Part shown: positions 34,705 to 45,727 of the stretch, piece by piece
Layout of the letters: each line of letters begins with the position of its first letter
How positions within the stretch are numbered: position 1 is the first letter of the stretch
Translations under genes and position numbers: made by a program
The notes under the pieces: model-generated
The model's database searches: none
Told to the model about the DNA's origin: nothing
What the model saw: the letters and a program-made list of their open reading frames with translations, nothing else
Source: Polytrichum commune
Lineage: Eukaryota; Streptophyta; Polytrichopsida; Polytrichales; Polytrichaceae
Assembly (NCBI GenBank): GCA_950295325.1
Contig: OX485805.1
Location: forward strand, 41,031,501 to 41,095,500
Reading direction: 5' to 3'
Length of the DNA: 64,000 nucleotides

Positions 34705-35136
34705 TGTCACGTGAGGTGACATCGGGGGCTAAGTCACGTCAATTTAGGAGTAAATGGACTCCACTAGGAGTCCATGTGTGTTGGGATGAGTAACGGACTC
34801 CATTGGGAGTCCTAGTTAGTTGTTCATCCACTCCATGGATGAACTCCACATAGGATTGGGGTTGTATGGAGAGGAAGGCCTCTTGACTTGCCATTGTTGT
34901 CAAGTCAAGTCTTGTGAGTGTGTTTTGAGAGAGAGAGAGCTTGTTGTTGCTTTCTCATGGCTATGGTGTAGTAGATTATGTGTAAAGCTTTTGCATTCTT
35001 TCTCCACCACTTGCACTCTTGGATTCTCCCTTCGTGGAGTGAGAGATAGCTTGACTCTTGTGTGTGAATTTTAGAGTTTCTTAAGCTTTGTAAGGAGACA
35101 TTTTAGTTTCTTAAGCTTGGAGAGAGAAACCCTCAT
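34705..35136 (+). repeat. 5' LTR of the gypsy element
   Basis: Starts TGTCACGTGAGGTGACATCG and matches the 3' LTR until CCCTCAT. The true 3' boundary could lie slightly beyond, because the 3' copy changes to other sequence at that point. Confidence 0.8.
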
Positions 35137-35464
35137 ACTTGTCAACAATTGGCTCAAATTTTTCATTTTTGGTTGTATTTCTGAGCTAGAATGGCCCAGT
35201 ATTGAGAGCAAATGAGTGATACAAGTGTTTGAAAGCTTAGTTTGTCATTTCTTGCAACCCTTAAGAAGATTTTGAGAGAAATCTTCCCATTTTTCTTTTG
35301 TTATCTCTTTGTGTTTTCTTCAAGTGTTGATGGTTGAATCTTGAGATTCTATTTGGTCTCAAGATTCTCAAATCACATTATTCTTGCTTGCAATTTGTAA
35401 AAGAAAAGTTTAATTTTTTTTAAATTTACAAACAAACATAAACCAAACTTACAATCGAATTTTT

Positions 35465-35700
35465 TTTGAGCTCCGGAGCTCCACGGACACTCTTGGAGCT
35501 CTTGGAGCTCTTGGAGCTCCAATTCTGCACCCCGGGCGGCCAAATCCCGGGCCGGGGCCAGAGACATCCCGGGCCCCACGGCGGGCGGCGCCAGCCGGGC
35601 CCCGCGGCCAGGTGGGAGCGGGCCAGGCGGGCGGGCGTCGGCCGGGCCCACCGGCGGGCGGACGCCGGCCAAGCCTGGCTGGCTTAGGCCAAGGTAAGCT
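35465..35700. other. GC-rich island in the retrotransposon leader
   Basis: Sharply bounded and strongly GC-rich in an otherwise AT-rich leader. It opens with GAGCTCCGGAGCTC and three repeats of CTTGGAGCT, then GGGCCCCG-like blocks, and ends near a long T run (about 35709-35731). Frames on both strands are open only because of composition. No coding role is supported. Confidence 0.7.
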
Positions 35701-35869
35701 CAATTACCTTTGTTTTTTTTTTTTTTTTTTTTCCACAAAAAACAACCAAAAAAAAAACAACACCCCTTTATTTTTTTATAGTATTTTTTTTACTTTTATA
35801 TTCACATTTTTACTTTCCCCTTTCATACTTGGCATTTGACTCTCACAACTTTGAGGCTCAAATTTGGGG

Positions 35870-36147
35870 GCATACTAGCTCCGATTGGAGTGAAATTTGA
35901 GCCTATCTTGTGTGAAATTTGCCAAGGAATCCAATGGTGTAATTGGATTGTTGATTGGAATTCAAAATCATTGCTGAAATTATTAATTTCAACGCTGATT
36001 TTTGTTTTTGGGAGCAAATTAACTCCGATTGGAGTGAAATTTGAGCCTAATTTGTGTGAAATCTTCCTAGGAGTCCATTGGTGCACTTAGTTTGATGATT
36101 GGAGTCCATAATCACCTTGGAAATGAGCATTTTCAACGCTGATTTTT
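35870..36147. repeat. tandem duplication in the retrotransposon leader
   Basis: Two units of about 135 bp, each containing CTCCGATTGGAGTGAAATTT and ending TTTCAACGCTGATTTTT, are diverged by small changes. They sit shortly before gag. Confidence 0.75.
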
Positions 36148-36302
36148 TATTTTAATTACCAATCTCAAACCTTTGCACAATTTTGGAATTCTGGAGGCAT
36201 ATACATTTGGCATTTGGCAAGGGATTGCCATTTAGATAGCCCGCAACAGGTGCAGGTTGCCATTACCTTGTAGATAGTTGCAGGTACTCAAGTGATTATT
36301 TT

Positions 36303-37994
36303 ATGGTGCAAACTAGGAGCCGATATTATCGATCTCCATCACCAGATTACTTGGAGGACGTGCATACCACAAATCTTGAGCCAGAGGTAGATACCAACGA
36401 GGCTTTTGAGCCTATTTCGGCGTTGGACACTACTAGTAGGCTTCGGATTTGGAGTGTCGGCACGTTCGACGAAATGGAGGACGATTGCCACAATTCAGTG
36501 CGTGATCGGTTCTCAGGTCGAGCTGGGGGAATTTCCTTGCCCGATTGGAAACTCCGGTTTCGTACCTGGATTAAGGAGAAACGCCAAAGGTCTTCCAATT
36601 TCAATGATTGGTATGCCTTTGAACTTCTGCCTCAGCATTTGAAATATGAGGCACTCCAAACTTACGAACGCTGGACAGAGGGTCATCAGCGACAACTTCG
36701 GGAGGTGGAGCAGTATTGGGAGGCCCGGGTTGAACTTATTTCAGCCCTTAAAGATGGGGCGATTGCCACCTTAGCTCCACCTACCTTAAAGGAGGAGGAT
36801 CCACTGGAGGATCCACTGGAGGAGTCTGAGGACCAAGAACTGGCATTTGGGCCAATGGTGGCTGGCAGTAGCACGGCTACCCTTTCACGGATGGCACGTG
36901 CTACACAGGCAGCATTGACGGCTGTTGGTCCACCACCTCCGTTTAATCCCCTTACTGAATTTGTCGCACATTTGGAAGTGGAGTATGGTGGGTTTCGGCG
37001 AGACCAGATGCAGCGCATCCAGGATTTCCGCCGAGAGAAGGATGATACTCCACGGACCATGTATACGCGACTCGCGCGATTTGCGGTGGAGTCGGGAGGT
37101 ATTTTTGCTGAGAGTCAGCTTGTTAAAATCTTTTTGTCTAAGATTGACAAGCGGCTACTTGAGTTGGCATCACCTCGGATTATCCTCGACTACGAGGGCC
37201 GAGCTACGCTTGCACAAGCGTTTGCTGTGGTTGAGAGATGTGATCGGGCTCTTTGCCAACATGATGCCACGGATATGATATCTTGGATGACAGAGAGTCC
37301 GAAACCAAGAAGAATTGTCACAGCTACTAGTAGTTTAGCTGAGACTCAACCCGTCAAGGAGCAAAAGATTTTGCATTGTTGGGGTTGTGGAGAAGCTGGT
37401 CATTCGAAGAATGATCCCAATTGTCCTAAGAAGAAGAAAACTCAGCCTTTGGGAAAATTAAAACAAAAGATGGAACCAGTAAGGGCAGGGGACAATTCTA
37501 AGAAGAGACAATTAAAATGTAGCCATTGTGGTGGCACTAATCACAATGTGGATCATTGTTTCCTACTTCATCCTGAGATGCGGCCTGCTAGTTATGTCAC
37601 TGGAAAGTCTCCAAGGGAGCAGAGTCTTGAGGCTAAGGTGGCAGAGCTTGAGCAAAAGCTCAAATCTTCTGCATCTTTTGCTCAAATTTCTGAGCCGCAT
37701 GTGGGTGGTGGCACCTCGGGTTCGGACATGTATATGTTTGGAGCAGCTGGAGAGGTGGTGGCGGCGGCTTCTACTCGCTCACAAACATTGGCAGATGCGG
37801 TGGCTTCCACGAGTGGTGGTAGCAACGAGGTGCTACATCCTCGCCATGCCGGACCAGCTGATCAAATTGGTCAAGCACGTTTACCTCTTTCATTTGGATT
37901 GGTAGACACTACTGTTGTTGCAGCTAAAAAACCCTGTATCTTTGAAAGATGGGGATTCCATCTCGAAGGATGTTATGCAGGCATTGGCATATAA
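36303..37994 (+). CDS. gag of the gypsy element
   Basis: A 563-codon frame. The central region (about residues 215-330) resembles a retrotransposon capsid. There are two CCHC zinc knuckles near residues 360-420: CWGCGEAGH... has wider spacing before its last Cys, and CSHCGGTNHNVDHC is canonical. A short coiled coil with LEAKVAELEQKLK follows. Gag packages element RNA into a cytoplasmic particle. The next frame (protease) overlaps its end in another frame, so the family's usual frameshift or processing could link them. Confidence 0.88.
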   Translation: MVQTRSRYYRSPSPDYLEDVHTTNLEPEVDTNEAFEPISALDTTSRLRIWSVGTFDEMEDDCHNSVRDRFSGRAGGISLPDWKLRFRTWIKEKRQRSSNFNDWYAFELLPQHLKYEALQTYERWTEGHQRQLREVEQYWEARVELISALKDGAIATLAPPTLKEEDPLEDPLEESEDQELAFGPMVAGSSTATLSRMARATQAALTAVGPPPPFNPLTEFVAHLEVEYGGFRRDQMQRIQDFRREKDDTPRTMYTRLARFAVESGGIFAESQLVKIFLSKIDKRLLELASPRIILDYEGRATLAQAFAVVERCDRALCQHDATDMISWMTESPKPRRIVTATSSLAETQPVKEQKILHCWGCGEAGHSKNDPNCPKKKKTQPLGKLKQKMEPVRAGDNSKKRQLKCSHCGGTNHNVDHCFLLHPEMRPASYVTGKSPREQSLEAKVAELEQKLKSSASFAQISEPHVGGGTSGSDMYMFGAAGEVVAAASTRSQTLADAVASTSGGSNEVLHPRHAGPADQIGQARLPLSFGLVDTTVVAAKKPCIFERWGFHLEGCYAGIGI

Positions 37995-38982
37995 AATTCT
38001 CCATATGCCAATTTTCTCGGGTTCGGAATTTATGGCTTCGGATTTCAAGCCTGTTGCAGTTTTTCATTTAGGTGGGAGAATGTTAGAAGGTAAGGCGGAT
38101 TTGCCATCCCTTCAAGTATCCCAAGCTGTGGTTGATGTACCTGTGGCTGAGGAGGTGGAGGACTTAGCCAATTTGCGAGCGAGTCTTGCGGATGCGGCGA
38201 TCATTGCTTTTGGTAAGCAAACTGATATTCCTCCAGCATCAATTTCAGCAATGGATACGTCGTTTTCGAATTATGCGTCGGGAGCGGCATATCTTGCAGA
38301 CATTTCTGCAAGGCCTGCTCGCGAACGGCATAATTTGCAACCTGGAGTTGTACGGCTGATGAACGACAAATCTTTGTTTGTCGTTTCACGCACGGATATG
38401 CCCACTATCCGTGCTACACCACTGAGAGTTATGATGGATTCCGGTGCTCAACCGGTTATGATTGGCAAAGGACTTGCTGACAGTCTTGGATTGACGCCAG
38501 CAAGCTTGGATCCTTGTCCATTTACTATTGTGACTTCAGTAGGGGGCACTGAACGTGCAACAGGTTACACCAAGGCACCGCTACGTTTGATTTTTCATGT
38601 GGGGGCAGGGCCTACTTACACTCATTTGTCAATGAAGTGTGTTGTTACTAATGCTACCAACTATGATATACTTGTTGGTCAGCAAGCTCTTTACCCACTT
38701 GGCTTTGGTTTGGATAATTGGACGGAAGAGGCATGGATTAGACCGGGATGGTCCACTGGAAATGGCAGGAAGGTATTTATTCCCGTCACATTTGCAGCCA
38801 CTGCTATGACTATGGTTGCGGAGGCAATATTTGGTTGCAGCGGTTCAGTTGCAGATTTGCCTTGTGCTCCAGTTTTATTGGAGGAAACAATGGACTACAC
38901 TTGTAATGCCGCAGAACAACAATTTTTACCATCTTTTCAAATTCCTGCTCGACATTTCAAGGATCCACCTCCACCATGGTGA
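37915..38982 (+). CDS. aspartic protease region of the gypsy element
   Basis: The retropepsin active-site motif MDSGA lies at about 38434-38448, followed by the downstream ILVGQQ turn near 38670, as in gypsy proteases that cut the polyprotein. The upstream half is a linker without recognisable motifs. Confidence 0.8.
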   Translation: MLQLKNPVSLKDGDSISKDVMQALAYKILHMPIFSGSEFMASDFKPVAVFHLGGRMLEGKADLPSLQVSQAVVDVPVAEEVEDLANLRASLADAAIIAFGKQTDIPPASISAMDTSFSNYASGAAYLADISARPARERHNLQPGVVRLMNDKSLFVVSRTDMPTIRATPLRVMMDSGAQPVMIGKGLADSLGLTPASLDPCPFTIVTSVGGTERATGYTKAPLRLIFHVGAGPTYTHLSMKCVVTNATNYDILVGQQALYPLGFGLDNWTEEAWIRPGWSTGNGRKVFIPVTFAATAMTMVAEAIFGCSGSVADLPCAPVLLEETMDYTCNAAEQQFLPSFQIPARHFKDPPPPW

Positions 38983-39099
38983 ACTCCTAAGGAGTTATCC
39001 GACCATTGTCGACACATTGTAGCGGATTTGGAGCTTGGAGAGGCACCCCCAACTTCATCCTCATTTTCTTTTGCTCAACCCATTCGTTGGCAACCATCA

Positions 39100-40100
39100 C
39101 CTGAAGGTATTGTCCTTGTGGAGATCTTTGGAGGCATTGGCACAGGTTTGGCGGCAGTGTTGGAAGCTGGAATTACAGTTTGCCGATATATTCATGTGGA
39201 CAATGGGTATGCAGCCAACAGAGCCGTCTGACACCACATCCAACAATTGTTGTTGAGATACCCCGCACAATTGTCAACCTCTGCCATTCATGGATGTTGT
39301 GATCAACTTCCTCAAGATGTCACTATGATTAGTGATGAGGATTTGAGAAGGTTGGGCCACGTGGATTTGATTATTGCAGGATGGCCTTGTCAAGGCCATT
39401 CGCGGGCAGGAACTGGCCAGGGATTGGATGATCCTAGGTCTAGTTTGTTTGCGGATTTGATGCGATTGACGCAATGGTGGTTCACCCACCAATCAACTCC
39501 GCCAGGGTACATTTTCGAAAATGTACCATTATTGGGTGATATCCGGCACAAAGTGGTGAAGGATGGTGAGTACATTAACCAAATTCTGGGTACTCCAACA
39601 TTTCTGGATGCTGCAGCTTTGGGATCCTTTATTCATCGGCCTCGTTAGTTTTGGACCAACTTGGTATCACCTCGGGTGCTTTCAGCGGCGATTGCCTGCA
39701 TTCCCCGCCTTATCGATCGCAAGGTGGATGACATTTTAAATTGTCATCGTGTTTCCTTGGCAGTTACCAAGGATGACACCTTGCCATTTGCATTAATTAA
39801 CAAGGTGGGAATTCCGAGAGGTGCACTACCTACTTTTGTGACATATCCACAGTCTTTTGCATTTCGATCTCGTGGACCTGACATGGTTTGGGATTCAAAA
39901 TCCCAAACTTATGAGGAGCCTACGGCAGATGAGCGGGAACGCGCCATGGGTTTTTTTTACAGGTAACACGGCTACTCATGGGCTTCAGGAAGGTCATAGA
40001 CGTTTCCTATTGGGGCAAGCTATGGATCTTAATAGCATTGTGTGGATAATTGGAATTTGTCTTGCTGCTCAACAACGTATGGATGACCAATTGCTTACTC
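39100..40100 (+). pseudogene. C5-cytosine DNA methyltransferase module of the gypsy element (broken)
   Basis: Conserved motifs occur in the non-permuted order. Motif I (cofactor pocket; EIFGGIGTGLAAVLEAG) is near 39121. Motif IV with the catalytic Cys (IAGWPCQGHSRAG) is near 39375. Motif VI (FENV) is near 39513. A C-terminal part with ERERAMGF and RRFLLGQ lies around 39930-40020. The phrase GI-x-V-x-RYI after motif I and the C-terminal ERxMGF...LLG pattern resemble DNMT3 and the DRM catalytic domain. The order is unpermuted, unlike plant DRM. Such an enzyme transfers a methyl group from S-adenosylmethionine to cytosine in DNA. It lies between protease and reverse transcriptase, an unusual site for a captured host gene. 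This copy is broken. Confidence 0.85.
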
Positions 40101-40882
40101 TGAGGGCAGAGAACAATGGTCAAGGGGCAATGGAGCCGCAATCCAAGGATCACATTGAGGTCAATGACACTGAGGGATTATTACCTTTGAAACTTCATGT
40201 TGCGGAAGAGCTTCGAGTCCAACGTGTTTTTTCGGCTTTGGCCCAAGAGTTTGGGAAGTTGGAGGCCCATAAAATGTTTCCACTTCTATTTCTTGGTGAT
40301 ACTTCATATGTGTGTAGCTATTTAGCTACACAAACTGATTGTAGTGGAAAGGATACGCATTTGGATTCAAGTGCAGATAATGGGGGCAAAGGTGTTGCCC
40401 TCTCCACGGACTAGCAATCACAGGCTGTGCTGGCACCAAGTGGCAATCCTTCTATGAAGAAGGAAACCACGGAGTTTGACGATTGGCCAATTGAAGTGGG
40501 GCCAAAGCTTACTGGTGCCGAAGCACGAAAGGTACGGGCATTTATTCGTTCTTACCGTAATTGTTTTGCCTTTACACAACAAGGAAATGGGTGTATAATT
40601 GACAAAAATGTGACACTAAAATGTCCGAAGTGACAAAATCAGCTCAAAGCTATGAGTTTTTGTCAATTCGGACATTATTCAAAATTTGTGTCAATTTTCT
40701 GTCATCAGATTTATATATTTCACGTTTAACTTATTCCCTTCACCTGAGCATGTGTCTCATATTTATTAACAACAAAAGGTGTTACAAAAGGTTTTTAATT
40801 ATTGTAATTACTAGTATAAGTAATTAATATAAATAATATATTTACTATAATTAATGTAATAACTAATTTAATTAATTAATGA

Positions 40883-41105
40883 AAATACTGAAATTACCAA
40901 TTTAAGTAAATACTGAAATTACCCTTTTGAGTAATACTGAAATTACCAATTTAAGTAAATGGGGAAATTACCAATTTAACTAAATACTGAAATTTGTTAA
41001 TTTAAGTAAATATTGAAATTTTCTAATTTAAGTAAATATTGAAATTTGCTAATTTAGGTAAATACTGAAATTTGCTATTTTCAGTAAAATACTGAAATTA
41101 TTGTA
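40883..41105. repeat. AT-rich tandem array, about 30-bp unit
   Basis: About seven diverged units around ATACTGAAATTTGCTAATTT, inside the CACTA element. Subterminal repeats are normal in CACTA elements, but this array is central. Confidence 0.7.
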
Positions 41106-41330
41106 ATTAATGTAGTTAAAATAATTAAAATAATTACTGTAATAATGTTTAGGAGTATTTTTGTAAATTGTTTTTAATACAAATACAATACGTACTAATT
41201 AAAAACAGTAAATACATTAATTCTATGCTTGTTTTTACTTTCACTAATTAAAAAATATATATACATAAGTTTATAAGTCTTATGGCTTCTTCATACAAAA
41301 CTCTTACATACTTGGCCTATATCATGTAAT

Positions 41331-41526
41331 GAGCGGTGGCTTAGTGGCTAAGGCCTTCACACTATAGCCAAGAGGTTCAAGGTTCGATCACCTTGATCCC
41401 TCTTCGCCTAGGGTAGGTAGGCGGCTTTGTCCATTAGCCTAGGTTAGGTGAGGTGGCCCTTCGCCCTTAGACCTATGTTAGTAGGCCCCAAATGCGAGGG
41501 TGGATTACTAATTTAGGATTTTTTTA
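41331..41526 (+). mobile_element. tRNA-derived SINE candidate
   Basis: Internal Pol III promoter-like boxes: an A-box-like TGGCTTAGTGGCTAAGG (about 41337-41353) and a B box GGTTCGATCACC (41381-41392), at tRNA-like spacing. About 130 bp of tRNA-unrelated body follow, then a T run near 41519-41525. The acceptor arm does not pair, so it is not a working tRNA. The head resembles those of plant Au-type SINEs as I recall them. No target duplication was identified. Confidence 0.5.
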
Positions 41527-41870
41527 CTAGTATAACTTGGACATTAAACCACATCACTATGGGTAAATGACGAGGTAAAGAGAATCCAACATGGCAAGGG
41601 GGCCGGAGTAAATAGAATCCTACGTGTATAATTGTCCCAGATGACAAAGAAATTGACAGAACTCTGTTAATTGTATGACCGAATCAAGGTGCCCTATATG
41701 ACACCCAAATTAACAGAATTTCGTCACATTTTTGTCAAATAGGTCATATAAATTCTTGTAGTGTTAGTCTTCATGATCTTGAAGGATATAAAAGTAAACC
41801 TGTTCGTATTCAATTCGAGGACGACCACCCTATTTTCAGACGGCCGTACAGACTTAGTACCTCTGAAAGG

Positions 41871-44750
41871 TTGGGTGTTCAAACTCGATGTCAAGAGTTA
41901 TTGGCAGCGGAATTGATTGAATTCTCCAATGGAGAGTATGCTTGTGCCACGGTTATGCCGTCAAAGAAGGATATCTTTGGCAACTGGACGGAAAAACGGA
42001 TGTGTGGTGATTATCGTCCAGTCAACCGCAAGACCAAATCGGATCGATATCCAATGCCGATGCCGGAGGAGTTGTTTGATGCACTAGGATTTTCTAGAAT
42101 CTTCAGCACTTTGGATTTGAGGTCTGGTTATCACCAATTACCTTTGTTGTTGGATGATCGGGTGAAGACCGCATTTTGGGGAATTGATAAAGATGGCAAG
42201 GATCAACTTTATCATTGGAAATTTCTGCCATTTGGTCTCAAGAATGCACCAGCTGAATTTCAGCGGATGATGGACCAATTATTGGCTGGTTTGCCGTTTG
42301 CTAGATGTTACATTGATGATGTTATTATCTTTAGTAACAGTCCACAGGATCATGTGAGACATTTGCAAGCGGTATTTGAACGACTTCAACGGTGGGGACT
42401 CCGTTTACATCATGGAAAATGTAAGTTTTTCCATGATCAATTGCCCTATTTAGGCCACATGATTGTTCCTGGCGGTCTTGGTGTGCAACAGGCGAAGGTG
42501 GATGCTTTGCACAAAATTCCCGCACCTAGTGATGTACCACGGCTTCGTGCATTTCTAGGATTGGCAAATTATTATAGGAGGTTTGTCAAAAACTTTAGTT
42601 TGATTACCAAACCTCTTACCATTCTCACGGGGAAAGACCAACCATGGATTTGGAGTCGGGAACAACAACAGGCATTTGATACATTGAAGCAGAGGCTTGG
42701 TTCAGCGCCAGTGCTTCGACGCCCGGATGTGTCTAGAGCTTTTCAATTGCACACGGATTGGAGTGCAGTGGGATTGGGAGCGGTATTGACACAGAAAGAT
42801 GAAGAGGGAAAGGAATATGTGGTGGCTTATGCATCTAGAAGTAATAATAGTGCTGAATCTAATTATTCTTCTTATGAAGGCGAGGCCTTGGCGGCCATTT
42901 GGGCCATTGTACATTTTCGACCTTATTTGTATGGGCAGAAATTTACTTTGGTGACTGATCATCAGCCTTTAAAATGGCTTATGGAATCAGATAAGCTCAC
43001 TGGAAAACTTGCTAGGTGGGCATTGTTACTTCAGGAATATGATTTTGAAGTTGTTCACCGAGCAGGAATTGCCAACTTGGATGCAGACGGATTGTCTCGC
43101 AATCCAAGTCCTTCAGATGAGGATTTAACTGGAGCCAGGTGGCATGGAGATTGTGATCGTGAGGCAGTGCCGGGTTGGCATGCTGCCACGTATCTCACAA
43201 TGATGTCGGGATTGGCTGCTGAAATCCTTGTGGAAGAGCAAGATGAGGAGATTGATAAATCTCTCGTTGTTAGTGATGTGTGGGAAGACCAGGCGGTCTT
43301 GCACAAACTTCAACAAGGGATATTTCCTCTTGGACTATCTTCTATGGAGCGAGATAGAGTTAGTCACCGGATAACAAGGTTTCGTTGGGCAAATAACTTG
43401 TTATTTCGTGTGTGGCCGAACGGAACGAGGCGCATCGTTCCAAGGCCAGATCAAAGAGCTTCTTTGGTGCGGCAAGTGCACGAGGAGCTTGGACATTTTG
43501 GAGTGCGAAGGACGCACTCTATGTTGCGCAACCAATATTGGTGGACTGGTATGTATCAACAGGTTGCCACTTATGTTTCTCGGTGTGAAGTATGTGACTG
43601 GGTCAGGTCAAGTTTTAATACTTTATCACCTCAACTTCAGCCTTTACCTATTATGGGCTTGGGATATCGTTGGTCTTTGGATTTTGCCGGACCGCTTACT
43701 ATCACTCCACGTGGTTCCAAGTATGTGCTTGTGATGGTGGAGCATTTTAGTAAGTGGATTGAACTCGTGGCTCTTCCCCAAAATTCCTCAGAATTGGCGA
43801 CTATGGCATTTCTTGATCGAGTTTTGGCACGGTTTGGAGCACCTGCAGAGGTGTTGACGGATCAAGGGAGAGAATTCCTTGGATCTTTCGAGGCTTTGTG
43901 TACCAAGGCTTTGATTGATCATTGGACAACTTCCAGAGATCACCCTGAGGCAGATGGCTTAGCTGAACGAGTTGTTCAGACGGTTAAGCGCGGTTTGCGG
44001 AAGTATGGATTGCTTCATGGCAACCATCGCGATTGGGACTTGATGTTATCATGGATAGCAATGGGTTATCGTTTCAGCAGGCAAACATCTTTGGCATCCT
44101 ATAGTCCTTACCAACTCTTGTATGGACGAGAACCAATTTTACCTAGCTCGGTGCGAGAGAAATTGGCTCCCGTGGTAAACTTGGATGATCCAGATGTTTG
44201 GGCTCAATGTCTTCATAACCGAGCAGCGTTCTTCCAAAAGGCCATGCCTATGGCTATGGAGAACTTAAATATTGCTCAACATCGTGATACATTACGGTAT
44301 GCCCGGATCCGTAGTGGAGCTTATCGACCTCAGGTTCGTAGATTTTCCAAGGGGGATTATGTTTACTTGCAACGGGAGGCGCCTACGACATTGGATGTCA
44401 AGGCTGGGCGCACGATTTTGCGGGTAAAAGATGTCTTGCCAAGTGGTATATTATTGCTTGAAGGCAAGGATGGACGGGAATGTCGTGAGCATTCAAAGAA
44501 TTGTGCTCCATGTCACCTTCCCATCGACGGCTCTGTGCATCCCGAGTTGGCGGTTGTACCACATGGTTTGCCTTGTTATGTTTGTGGAGAGAAGACAGGA
44601 GCTGCAACAATGTTATTGTGCGACCAATGTCAACGTGGATGGCACATGGCATGTTTGACACCTCCCCTTTTGACTCTTCCTTCTGGCAATTGGGTTTGTC
44701 CTCGTTGTCAGAAAGCCTCTCATTCCGTGGCCGTTAATGGTCATGATTGA
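41871..44750 (+). CDS. reverse transcriptase-RNase H-integrase-PHD polyprotein of the gypsy element
   Basis: A 959-codon frame. Reverse transcriptase at about residues 35-200 has the catalytic YIDD and the FGLKNAPAEFQ signature. RNase H begins with LHTDWSAVGLGAVLTQ near residue 290. The integrase zinc-binding HHCC region (HEELGHFGVRRTHSML...C-x2-C) is near 540-580. The integrase core has its acidic residues in LDFAGP, TDQGREF and ADGLAERVVQ (about 600-710). The C-terminus is a PHD finger. The enzymes copy element RNA to DNA and insert it into the nucleus genome. The frame may begin further upstream than the first ATG, because the CACTA insertion lies just before it. Confidence 0.9.
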   Translation: MGVQTRCQELLAAELIEFSNGEYACATVMPSKKDIFGNWTEKRMCGDYRPVNRKTKSDRYPMPMPEELFDALGFSRIFSTLDLRSGYHQLPLLLDDRVKTAFWGIDKDGKDQLYHWKFLPFGLKNAPAEFQRMMDQLLAGLPFARCYIDDVIIFSNSPQDHVRHLQAVFERLQRWGLRLHHGKCKFFHDQLPYLGHMIVPGGLGVQQAKVDALHKIPAPSDVPRLRAFLGLANYYRRFVKNFSLITKPLTILTGKDQPWIWSREQQQAFDTLKQRLGSAPVLRRPDVSRAFQLHTDWSAVGLGAVLTQKDEEGKEYVVAYASRSNNSAESNYSSYEGEALAAIWAIVHFRPYLYGQKFTLVTDHQPLKWLMESDKLTGKLARWALLLQEYDFEVVHRAGIANLDADGLSRNPSPSDEDLTGARWHGDCDREAVPGWHAATYLTMMSGLAAEILVEEQDEEIDKSLVVSDVWEDQAVLHKLQQGIFPLGLSSMERDRVSHRITRFRWANNLLFRVWPNGTRRIVPRPDQRASLVRQVHEELGHFGVRRTHSMLRNQYWWTGMYQQVATYVSRCEVCDWVRSSFNTLSPQLQPLPIMGLGYRWSLDFAGPLTITPRGSKYVLVMVEHFSKWIELVALPQNSSELATMAFLDRVLARFGAPAEVLTDQGREFLGSFEALCTKALIDHWTTSRDHPEADGLAERVVQTVKRGLRKYGLLHGNHRDWDLMLSWIAMGYRFSRQTSLASYSPYQLLYGREPILPSSVREKLAPVVNLDDPDVWAQCLHNRAAFFQKAMPMAMENLNIAQHRDTLRYARIRSGAYRPQVRRFSKGDYVYLQREAPTTLDVKAGRTILRVKDVLPSGILLLEGKDGRECREHSKNCAPCHLPIDGSVHPELAVVPHGLPCYVCGEKTGAATMLLCDQCQRGWHMACLTPPLLTLPSGNWVCPRCQKASHSVAVNGHD
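44574..44708 (+). other. C-terminal PHD finger of the integrase
   Basis: A complete C4-H-C3 pattern: CYVCGE, then CDQCQRGWHMAC, then CPRC, with the Trp two residues before the last metal pair typical of PHD fingers. PHD fingers usually read histone H3 tails. At the integrase C-terminus, where chromoviruses carry a chromodomain, it could direct insertion to marked chromatin (inference). Confidence 0.85.
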
Positions 44751-45073
44751 GGATTTTGTGGATGTTTACCACATGTTTTAGTGGTGAAGTTGTTATTTAG
44801 TTGGTTGGAAATTTTATGGGATTGAAAACCACATTGAAAGAATTATCCAAGCATTCAACATTAATTGTTGAAGGCGATTAAGGATGGGGCTCACATTGCA
44901 CCCAGCCTACAGTTCTTGGATTACTTTGTCAATCACGAGTTTAATTCCTTCGATTACTACTACCCAATTAAATATGTATAGATGTAGCAACAACTTCATC
45001 ATGTTCAACAACTCTATCGATGAGTGTGTTTGTTCCTAGCCGATTGGAGGGGCTCCTTATCTGCTAGTGGGGG

Positions 45074-45184
45074 CACTTGAAGAGGTGGTTGTTTAGCATT
45101 TTAGTTTGTTATTTTATTTTGCTAATTGATGTTGACAACGACACTCGATCTGTTGTGTTTAACGATCTTAGTTTACACGACAGC
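45074..45184 (+). repeat. 110-bp direct repeat, left of the 3' LTR
   Basis: Begins CTTGAAGAGGTGGTTGTTTA and ends CACGACAGC, immediately before the 3' LTR. It recurs just after the LTR (45619-45727) with about three differences. It is absent beside the 5' LTR. The purine-rich start could be the polypurine tract. Confidence 0.85.
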
Positions 45185-45618
45185 TGTCACGTGAGGTGAC
45201 ATCGGGGGCTAAGTCACGTCAATTTATGAGTAAATGGACTCCACTAGGAGTCCATGTGTGTTGGGATGAGTAACGGACTCCATTGGGAGTCCTAGTTAGT
45301 TGTTCATCCACTCCATGGATGAACTCCACGTAGGATTGGGGTTGTATGGAGAGGAAGGCCTCTTGACTTGCCATTGTTGTCAAGTTAAGTCTTGTGAGTG
45401 TGTTTTGAGAGAGAGAAAGAGCTTGTTGTTGTTTTCTCATGGCTATGGTGTAGTAGATTATGAGTAAAGCTTTTGCATTCTTTCTCCACCACTTGCACTC
45501 TTGGATTCTCCCTTCGTGGAGTGAGAGATAGCTTGATTCTTGTGTGTGAATTTTAGAGTTTCTTAAGCTTTGTAAGGAGACATTTTAGTTTCTTAAGCTT
45601 GGAGAGAGAAACCCTCAT
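45185..45618 (+). repeat. 3' LTR of the gypsy element
   Basis: About 434 bp matching 34705-35136 at about 98.5%. Sandwiched between two copies of a 110-bp repeat. Confidence 0.85.
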
Positions 45619-45727
45619 CTTGAAGAGGTGGTTGTTTAGCATTTTAGTTTGCTATTTTATTTTGCTAATTGATGTTGACAACGATACTTGATCTGTTGTG
45701 TTTAACGATCTTAGTTTACACGACAGC
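45619..45727 (+). repeat. 110-bp direct repeat, right of the 3' LTR
   Basis: Second copy of the unit at 45074-45184. After it, sequence of the Harbinger shell resumes (45728 onward). Confidence 0.85.

Follow-up and report, generated by a model that had tools for sequence, protein, structure and literature searches.

A recently active Ty3/gypsy retrotransposon family of Polytrichum commune carrying a predicted DNMT3-type cytosine methyltransferase

What is a cytosine methyltransferase doing inside a retrotransposon of a land plant? The question is raised by an element bounded by TGTC...GACA at positions 34705-45725 of a 64-kb stretch of the Polytrichum commune genome (contig OX485805.1, positions 41,031,501 to 41,095,500; hereafter the window). 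An initial annotation, made from the sequence, had placed the element within two bases of these limits and described it as a long terminal repeat (LTR) retrotransposon with a DNMT3-like enzyme between protease and reverse transcriptase (RT). Profiles on both sides of the enzyme, and further copies in the genome, confirm that it is a module of the family in that position.

Results and Discussion

Structure of the window copy

Pfam searching of the window copy identifies a methyltransferase domain (PF00145) at 39232-39645 (E 1.2e-12, 48.3 bits against a cut-off of 22), within the interval 39100-40100 where it had been expected. Upstream is a retropepsin-like match (PF13650, E 7e-5, 23.9 bits, just below the cut-off of 24.3), and downstream are RT, RNase H, H2C2, rve integrase and PHD profiles. 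The Ty3/gypsy LTR anatomy of the initial annotation thus stands, although it had missed the position of the enzyme in the first open reading frame (ORF1), the B-A-B 3' end, the PHD finger closing ORF2 and a 1.2-kb transposon. The copy was correctly called broken: the frame shifts once between gag and protease and again near 39950, stop codons lie at 38980, 39229 and 39646, and a CACTA-like insertion of about 1.2 kb, flanked, as read by eye, by a TTA duplication (40572-40574 and 41764-41766), separates methyltransferase from RT. Its features are as follows.

34705-35136, + strand: repeat A1, the 5' terminal repeat, starting TGTCACG
36303-37994, + strand: gag region; the frame shifts within 37906-37994, ahead of the protease
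37906-38982, + strand: protease region; profile match at about 38407-38691, stop at 38980 (PF13650 E 7e-5 and PF13975 E 2.5e-4, both below cut-off)
39085-40081, + strand: predicted DNMT3-type C5-cytosine methyltransferase domain; stops at 39229 and 39646, frame change near 39950
40412-40420, + strand: TAG CAATCA, conserved in-frame stop in a readthrough-type context at the ORF1/ORF2 border
40415-40574, + strand: start of ORF2, 5' of the insertion, by comparison with copy L016
40575-41763, no strand assigned: CACTA-like non-autonomous DNA transposon within ORF2, read by eye
41764-44750, + strand: remainder of ORF2, with RT, RNase H, H2C2 zinc finger, rve integrase and PHD
44574-44708, + strand: PHD finger near the ORF2 C-terminus (PF00628, E 9.2e-11)
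45076-45182, + strand: repeat B1, with a G-rich tract (AGTGGGGGCA) directly 5'
45185-45618, + strand: repeat A2, linked to B1 via GC; palindromic junction GACAGCTGTC
45619-45725, + strand: repeat B2, the 3' terminus, ending ...CGACA

The methyltransferase and its copies

Motifs I, IV, VI and VIII stand in unpermuted order. Of 30 loci compared in the Polytrichum commune genome, 18 have an open domain with all motifs. The Pro-Cys of motif IV is present in 28 loci (the exceptions are L015 and L029), and ENV and HRxR in all 30. Across 13 aligned enzymes, the catalytic Cys, the motif VI Glu and both Arg residues of HRxR are invariant. The DNMT3 profile and the predicted fold both agree with the DNMT3 type, to which the enzyme probably belongs. 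The DRM type was rejected, as there is no circular permutation and motif I stands ahead of IV, VI and VIII; the DRM match falls at the C-terminal end of the DRM chain and spans profile positions 8-139. In seven relatives (P0028, P0030, P0032-P0035 and P0043) motif IV reads GWECQG, with Glu replacing Pro ahead of the catalytic Cys.

The genome searched comprises 407.8 Mb in 64 contigs, and plastid accD marks the host as a bryophyte. PF00145 yielded 352 candidates, of which 123 were scored, all above the cut-off and 13 with an internal stop; this number includes any host genes, which were not split off. A DNA search with the window methyltransferase scored 40 of 291 candidates, and 39 of these are other places at 97-98% identity. 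Because the 20 copies fetched are among the closest, the picture of this subfamily (A) is biased toward relatives of the window copy. Both ORFs are open throughout in five of the 20. A second subfamily (B: L001, L003, L004, L005, L007, L048 and L049) has an enzyme 61-65% identical.

Two ORFs separated by a conserved TAG

Where copies are open, a single frame, ORF1, runs through gag, protease and methyltransferase and has 1360-1365 codons counted from ATG. ORF2 (RT, RNase H, integrase and PHD; 1045-1048 codons) follows directly in the same frame after a TAG, so that the methyltransferase belongs to ORF1 and the stop separates it from RT. A CCHC-type motif was found in the gag of L016 by pattern search and a DSGA protease motif in the same copy, with no Pfam CCHC match in either the window copy or L016. 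The best PDB chain for L016 ORF2 is Ty3 Gag-Pol (7q5b, E 2.9e-101).

The TAG is followed by CARYYA in 26/26 readable loci among 28 inspected, the two unreadable ones (L008 and L022) being a single locus without the TAG stretch. As TAGCAATTA also occurs in L048 and L049, the context is found in 28/28 distinct readable loci, the window excluded. Subfamily A has CAATCA, and CAACCA once, while subfamily B has CAATTA or CAGTTA. The 89-96 codons 5' of the TAG are merely 33-42% identical between lineages, and because of this divergence the TAG context looks conserved by selection. The leaky stop of tobacco mosaic virus (TMV) is itself followed by CAA-UUA. In a plant reporter system, readthrough of UAG in its TMV context was 32% and was lost when the C following the stop was replaced (PMC2754532); the importance of CARYYA for readthrough is stated in PMC3441728. 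With UAG and CARYYA followed by an open frame in phase, we infer readthrough of the TAG into ORF2.

Repeats, target duplications and recent activity

The repeats are ordered A1 - coding - B1 - GC - A2 - B2, and the 3' end is thus B-A-B rather than a plain LTR. A G-rich tract, possibly a plus-strand primer, lies just 5' of B1 in both subfamilies. An exact 4-bp target duplication flanks 16 of the 18 subfamily A copies that have both ends, the window counted (L024, L029 and L030 are omitted, one end being absent from the data); in the other two, the window copy and L025, the duplication agrees at three of four bases. In subfamily B, L047 has CCAC on each side, as read by eye, and the same B1-GC-A2 junction. 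L023 and L026 have an A-coding-B layout with target duplications and without A2-B2, either by recombination or as another product.

Repeats of the window copy differ at 9/539 sites (1.67%, close to the roughly 1.5% first estimated), of which A1 and A2 account for 6/431. Within copies, A1 differs little from A2, and B1 little from B2. Repeats are identical in 9/17 dated copies (three of 20 have no comparable pair, two have only B, and A1 is partly covered in many), and therefore the family moved recently; it is, as had been proposed, a recently active one.

Relatives and shared history of enzyme and RT

Protein searching identified 45 relatives, with groups at 66-73% and 53-55% identity. These include Marchantia polymorpha (42-49%), Klebsormidium nitens (44%) and Sphagnum fallax (34%), plus others. 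A further search added Calypogeia fissa and Sphagnum troendelagicum. The K. nitens protein P0041, with its enzyme ahead of RT, is 44% identical in the methyltransferase and 47% in RT. P0028, P0030 and P0033-P0035 are single-ORF relatives. In P0043, which has a long extra C-terminal part, the enzyme sits between RNase H and integrase, which reflects either an alternative order of modules or an independent capture.

Distance matrices of enzyme and RT agree (Mantel r 0.93, 0/5000; 13 chosen rows). In both trees Marchantia joins the window family and the K. nitens group is united; deeper forks are weak and partly discordant. Because P0041 is a sequence relative and the distances agree, this looks like one lineage spanning algae and bryophytes. 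No land-plant report of a methyltransferase-bearing retrotransposon was found in the open-access literature searched, and the five methyltransferases given in the sections consulted of the Marchantia methylome paper are all of other classes.

Two relatives carry bacterial labels. L078 (CADCWO010000201.1, 1-9285) is a 9.3-kb contig in the cyanobacterial metagenome-assembled genome AVDCRST_MAG81. It has TAG CAATCA, an ORF2 of 1047 codons and an enzyme 70% identical; it is a retrotransposon of the window family and is therefore probably mis-binned. Mis-binning is likewise probable for P0046, labelled as a Candidatus Obscuribacterales protein.

What the enzyme may do

The reading that we prefer, with about even confidence, is that the methyltransferase methylates CG sites of the element's new cDNA before integration. 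ORF1, as Gag-protease-methyltransferase, would be produced at every translation and its enzyme packed in the particle, while only a minority of ribosomes would pass the leaky UAG-CARYYA into ORF2. The enzyme would act on CG sites of fresh cDNA within the particle or pre-integration complex, the integrase would then insert this cDNA with 4-bp target duplications, and new copies would benefit by arriving pre-marked, resembling silent host DNA. Self-methylation of cDNA is preferred because the enzyme, encoded with Gag and protease 5' of a leaky-type stop, is expected to be abundant in particles, the site of cDNA synthesis. Methylation of cDNA was proposed in 2018 for DIRS elements (PMC5890265).

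Several observations weigh against this. Within the subfamily the ratio of nonsynonymous to synonymous polymorphism (pN/pS) is 0.54 for the enzyme (13 copies), compared with 0.09 for RT and 0.14 for integrase (9 copies) and 0.19 for gag (5 copies), in copies chosen by enzyme similarity, which depresses pS; the enzyme may be under relaxed constraint here. It also changes faster between lineages (amino acid identity 0.65-0.70, RT 0.90-0.91). CpG is not depleted, with observed/expected ratios of 0.65-0.80 in the element ORFs versus 0.55 for the rest of the window; repeat A1 alone is CpG-poor (0.25 over 435 bases). The K. nitens enzyme was without activity in yeast, a result that its authors call inconclusive (PMC5890265).

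Two of these, pN/pS and the yeast result, would also suit a non-catalytic role, in which the domain is kept for nucleic-acid binding or assembly; we think this doubtful. Animal DNMT3L is a non-catalytic relative with such a role. GWECQG instead of GWPCQG in the seven relatives named above, and EHV instead of ENV in K. nitens-type relatives (P0037-P0039 and P0041), point the same way, but the retention of the motif IV Pro-Cys in 28/30 loci, of ENV and HRxR in all 30, and of the invariant catalytic residues in the aligned enzymes speaks against it. Comparably unlikely is marking of target sites or chromatin, whereby the PHD finger would recognise an H3 tail where the element inserts and the enzyme would methylate DNA around the insertion, giving silent, tolerated chromatin. 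The PHD finger has CHD4, PHF12, PHF21A, ubi-d4 and ATXR5 among its best PDB matches, is 0.80 identical in amino acids between subfamilies and recurs in P0028 and P0043. However, P0030 and P0033-P0035 have the enzyme but no PHD finger was found in them, and because ORF1 enzyme would outnumber integrase if readthrough holds, a role in the particle fits better. Self-restraint, where the enzyme aids host silencing of its own family and cuts the cost in a haploid-dominant plant, is more improbable still: the discussion of PMC5890265 brings up a slowing role in elements of this kind, but by sequence it is hard to tell from self-methylation, and the identical repeats speak of recent movement. That one copy picked up a host gene by chance can be dismissed, as nothing was found in favour of this and the further genomic copies, relatives elsewhere and matching enzyme and RT distances refute it; a chance insertion confined to this copy was what the initial annotation had named as undoing its claim.

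Around the preferred cDNA methylation a wider, rather speculative scheme can be drawn. A Ty3-type element with an rve integrase would replicate by Ngaro-like junction templating, the palindromic B1-GC-A2 rebuilding both ends, and a Gag-level DNMT3 would methylate the new DNA so that copies insert marked; PHD and enzyme would form a portable self-silencing kit, inherited since before the split between land plants and Klebsormidium-like algae.

Land plants silence such elements through cytosine methylation, and because of this an element that has retained a de novo type methyltransferase of its own, across divergence with near-saturated synonymous sites, calls a simple arms-race view into question. 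The bryophyte relatives, including the laboratory liverwort Marchantia, make it testable whether new retrotransposon DNA is methylated on arrival, and whose enzyme does it. The combination of split repeats with an integrase is also relevant to the ways in which LTR elements may switch replication mode.

Other features

The CACTA-like insert holds an AT-rich tandem array (unit about 25 bases, 40798-41084) and, by eye, a tRNA-promoter-like stretch near 41330-41420. A tRNA gene at 1276-1357 of the window is Thr(CGT) according to ARAGORN; read by eye, the body resembles a tRNA-Gly into which a short stretch, perhaps an intron, is inserted after the anticodon. L010 (G000:C3:14137891-14138196) is a nuclear copy of a plastid rbcL fragment.

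Comparison with known systems

KnitGypsy-Dnmt3 of K. nitens (de Mendoza et al. 2018, PMC5890265) is also an LTR gypsy element with a Dnmt3 domain, described as having a DIRS-like repeat structure (Fig. 4 legend) and as being under purifying selection. The Polytrichum element shares the order protease, RT, RNase H, integrase, with DNMT3 between protease and RT, the A1...B1-A2-B2 repeats, and kinship in enzyme and RT (13 rows, deeper forks weak). It differs in its host, a land plant rather than an alga, and in its enzyme, which closes ORF1 before the conserved TAG, whereas that of KnitGypsy-Dnmt3 is described inside the Pol ORF (PMC5890265). Because the TAG splits methyltransferase from RT, which do not form a single uninterrupted Pol ORF, we regard the element as a variant rather than a strict member. 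In the text consulted, PMC5890265 describes KnitGypsy-Dnmt3 with no mention of a target duplication, a PHD finger or a leaky stop.

Among the precedents first cited, the algal case is a sequence relative (P0041), while the dinoflagellate cases need adjusting to DIRS and LINE elements. SymbioDIRS-Dnmt3 and SymbioLINE-Dnmt are retrotransposons with DNMT domains, those of DIRS being CG-active in yeast (PMC5890265), and use a tyrosine recombinase or LINE machinery, unlike the Ty3 integrase here. Ngaro elements have the same split direct repeats, A1-[ORFs]-B1A2B2, but carry a tyrosine recombinase and no rve integrase (PMC8547959). No recombinase profile was found in L016 ORF1, L016 ORF2 or L049 ORF2, and an rve integrase was. 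DIRS and Ngaro elements are not known to make a target-site duplication, in contrast to the 4-bp duplications of this family. TAG with CAATCA or CAATTA matches the tobamovirus-type leaky UAG (CARYYA, PMC3441728); unlike in tobamoviruses, the candidate leaky stop divides Gag-protease-methyltransferase from RT. A known kind of element is hereby extended to land plants. Added to it are a leaky-type stop between the two ORFs, a PHD finger, and target duplications in an element with split repeats.
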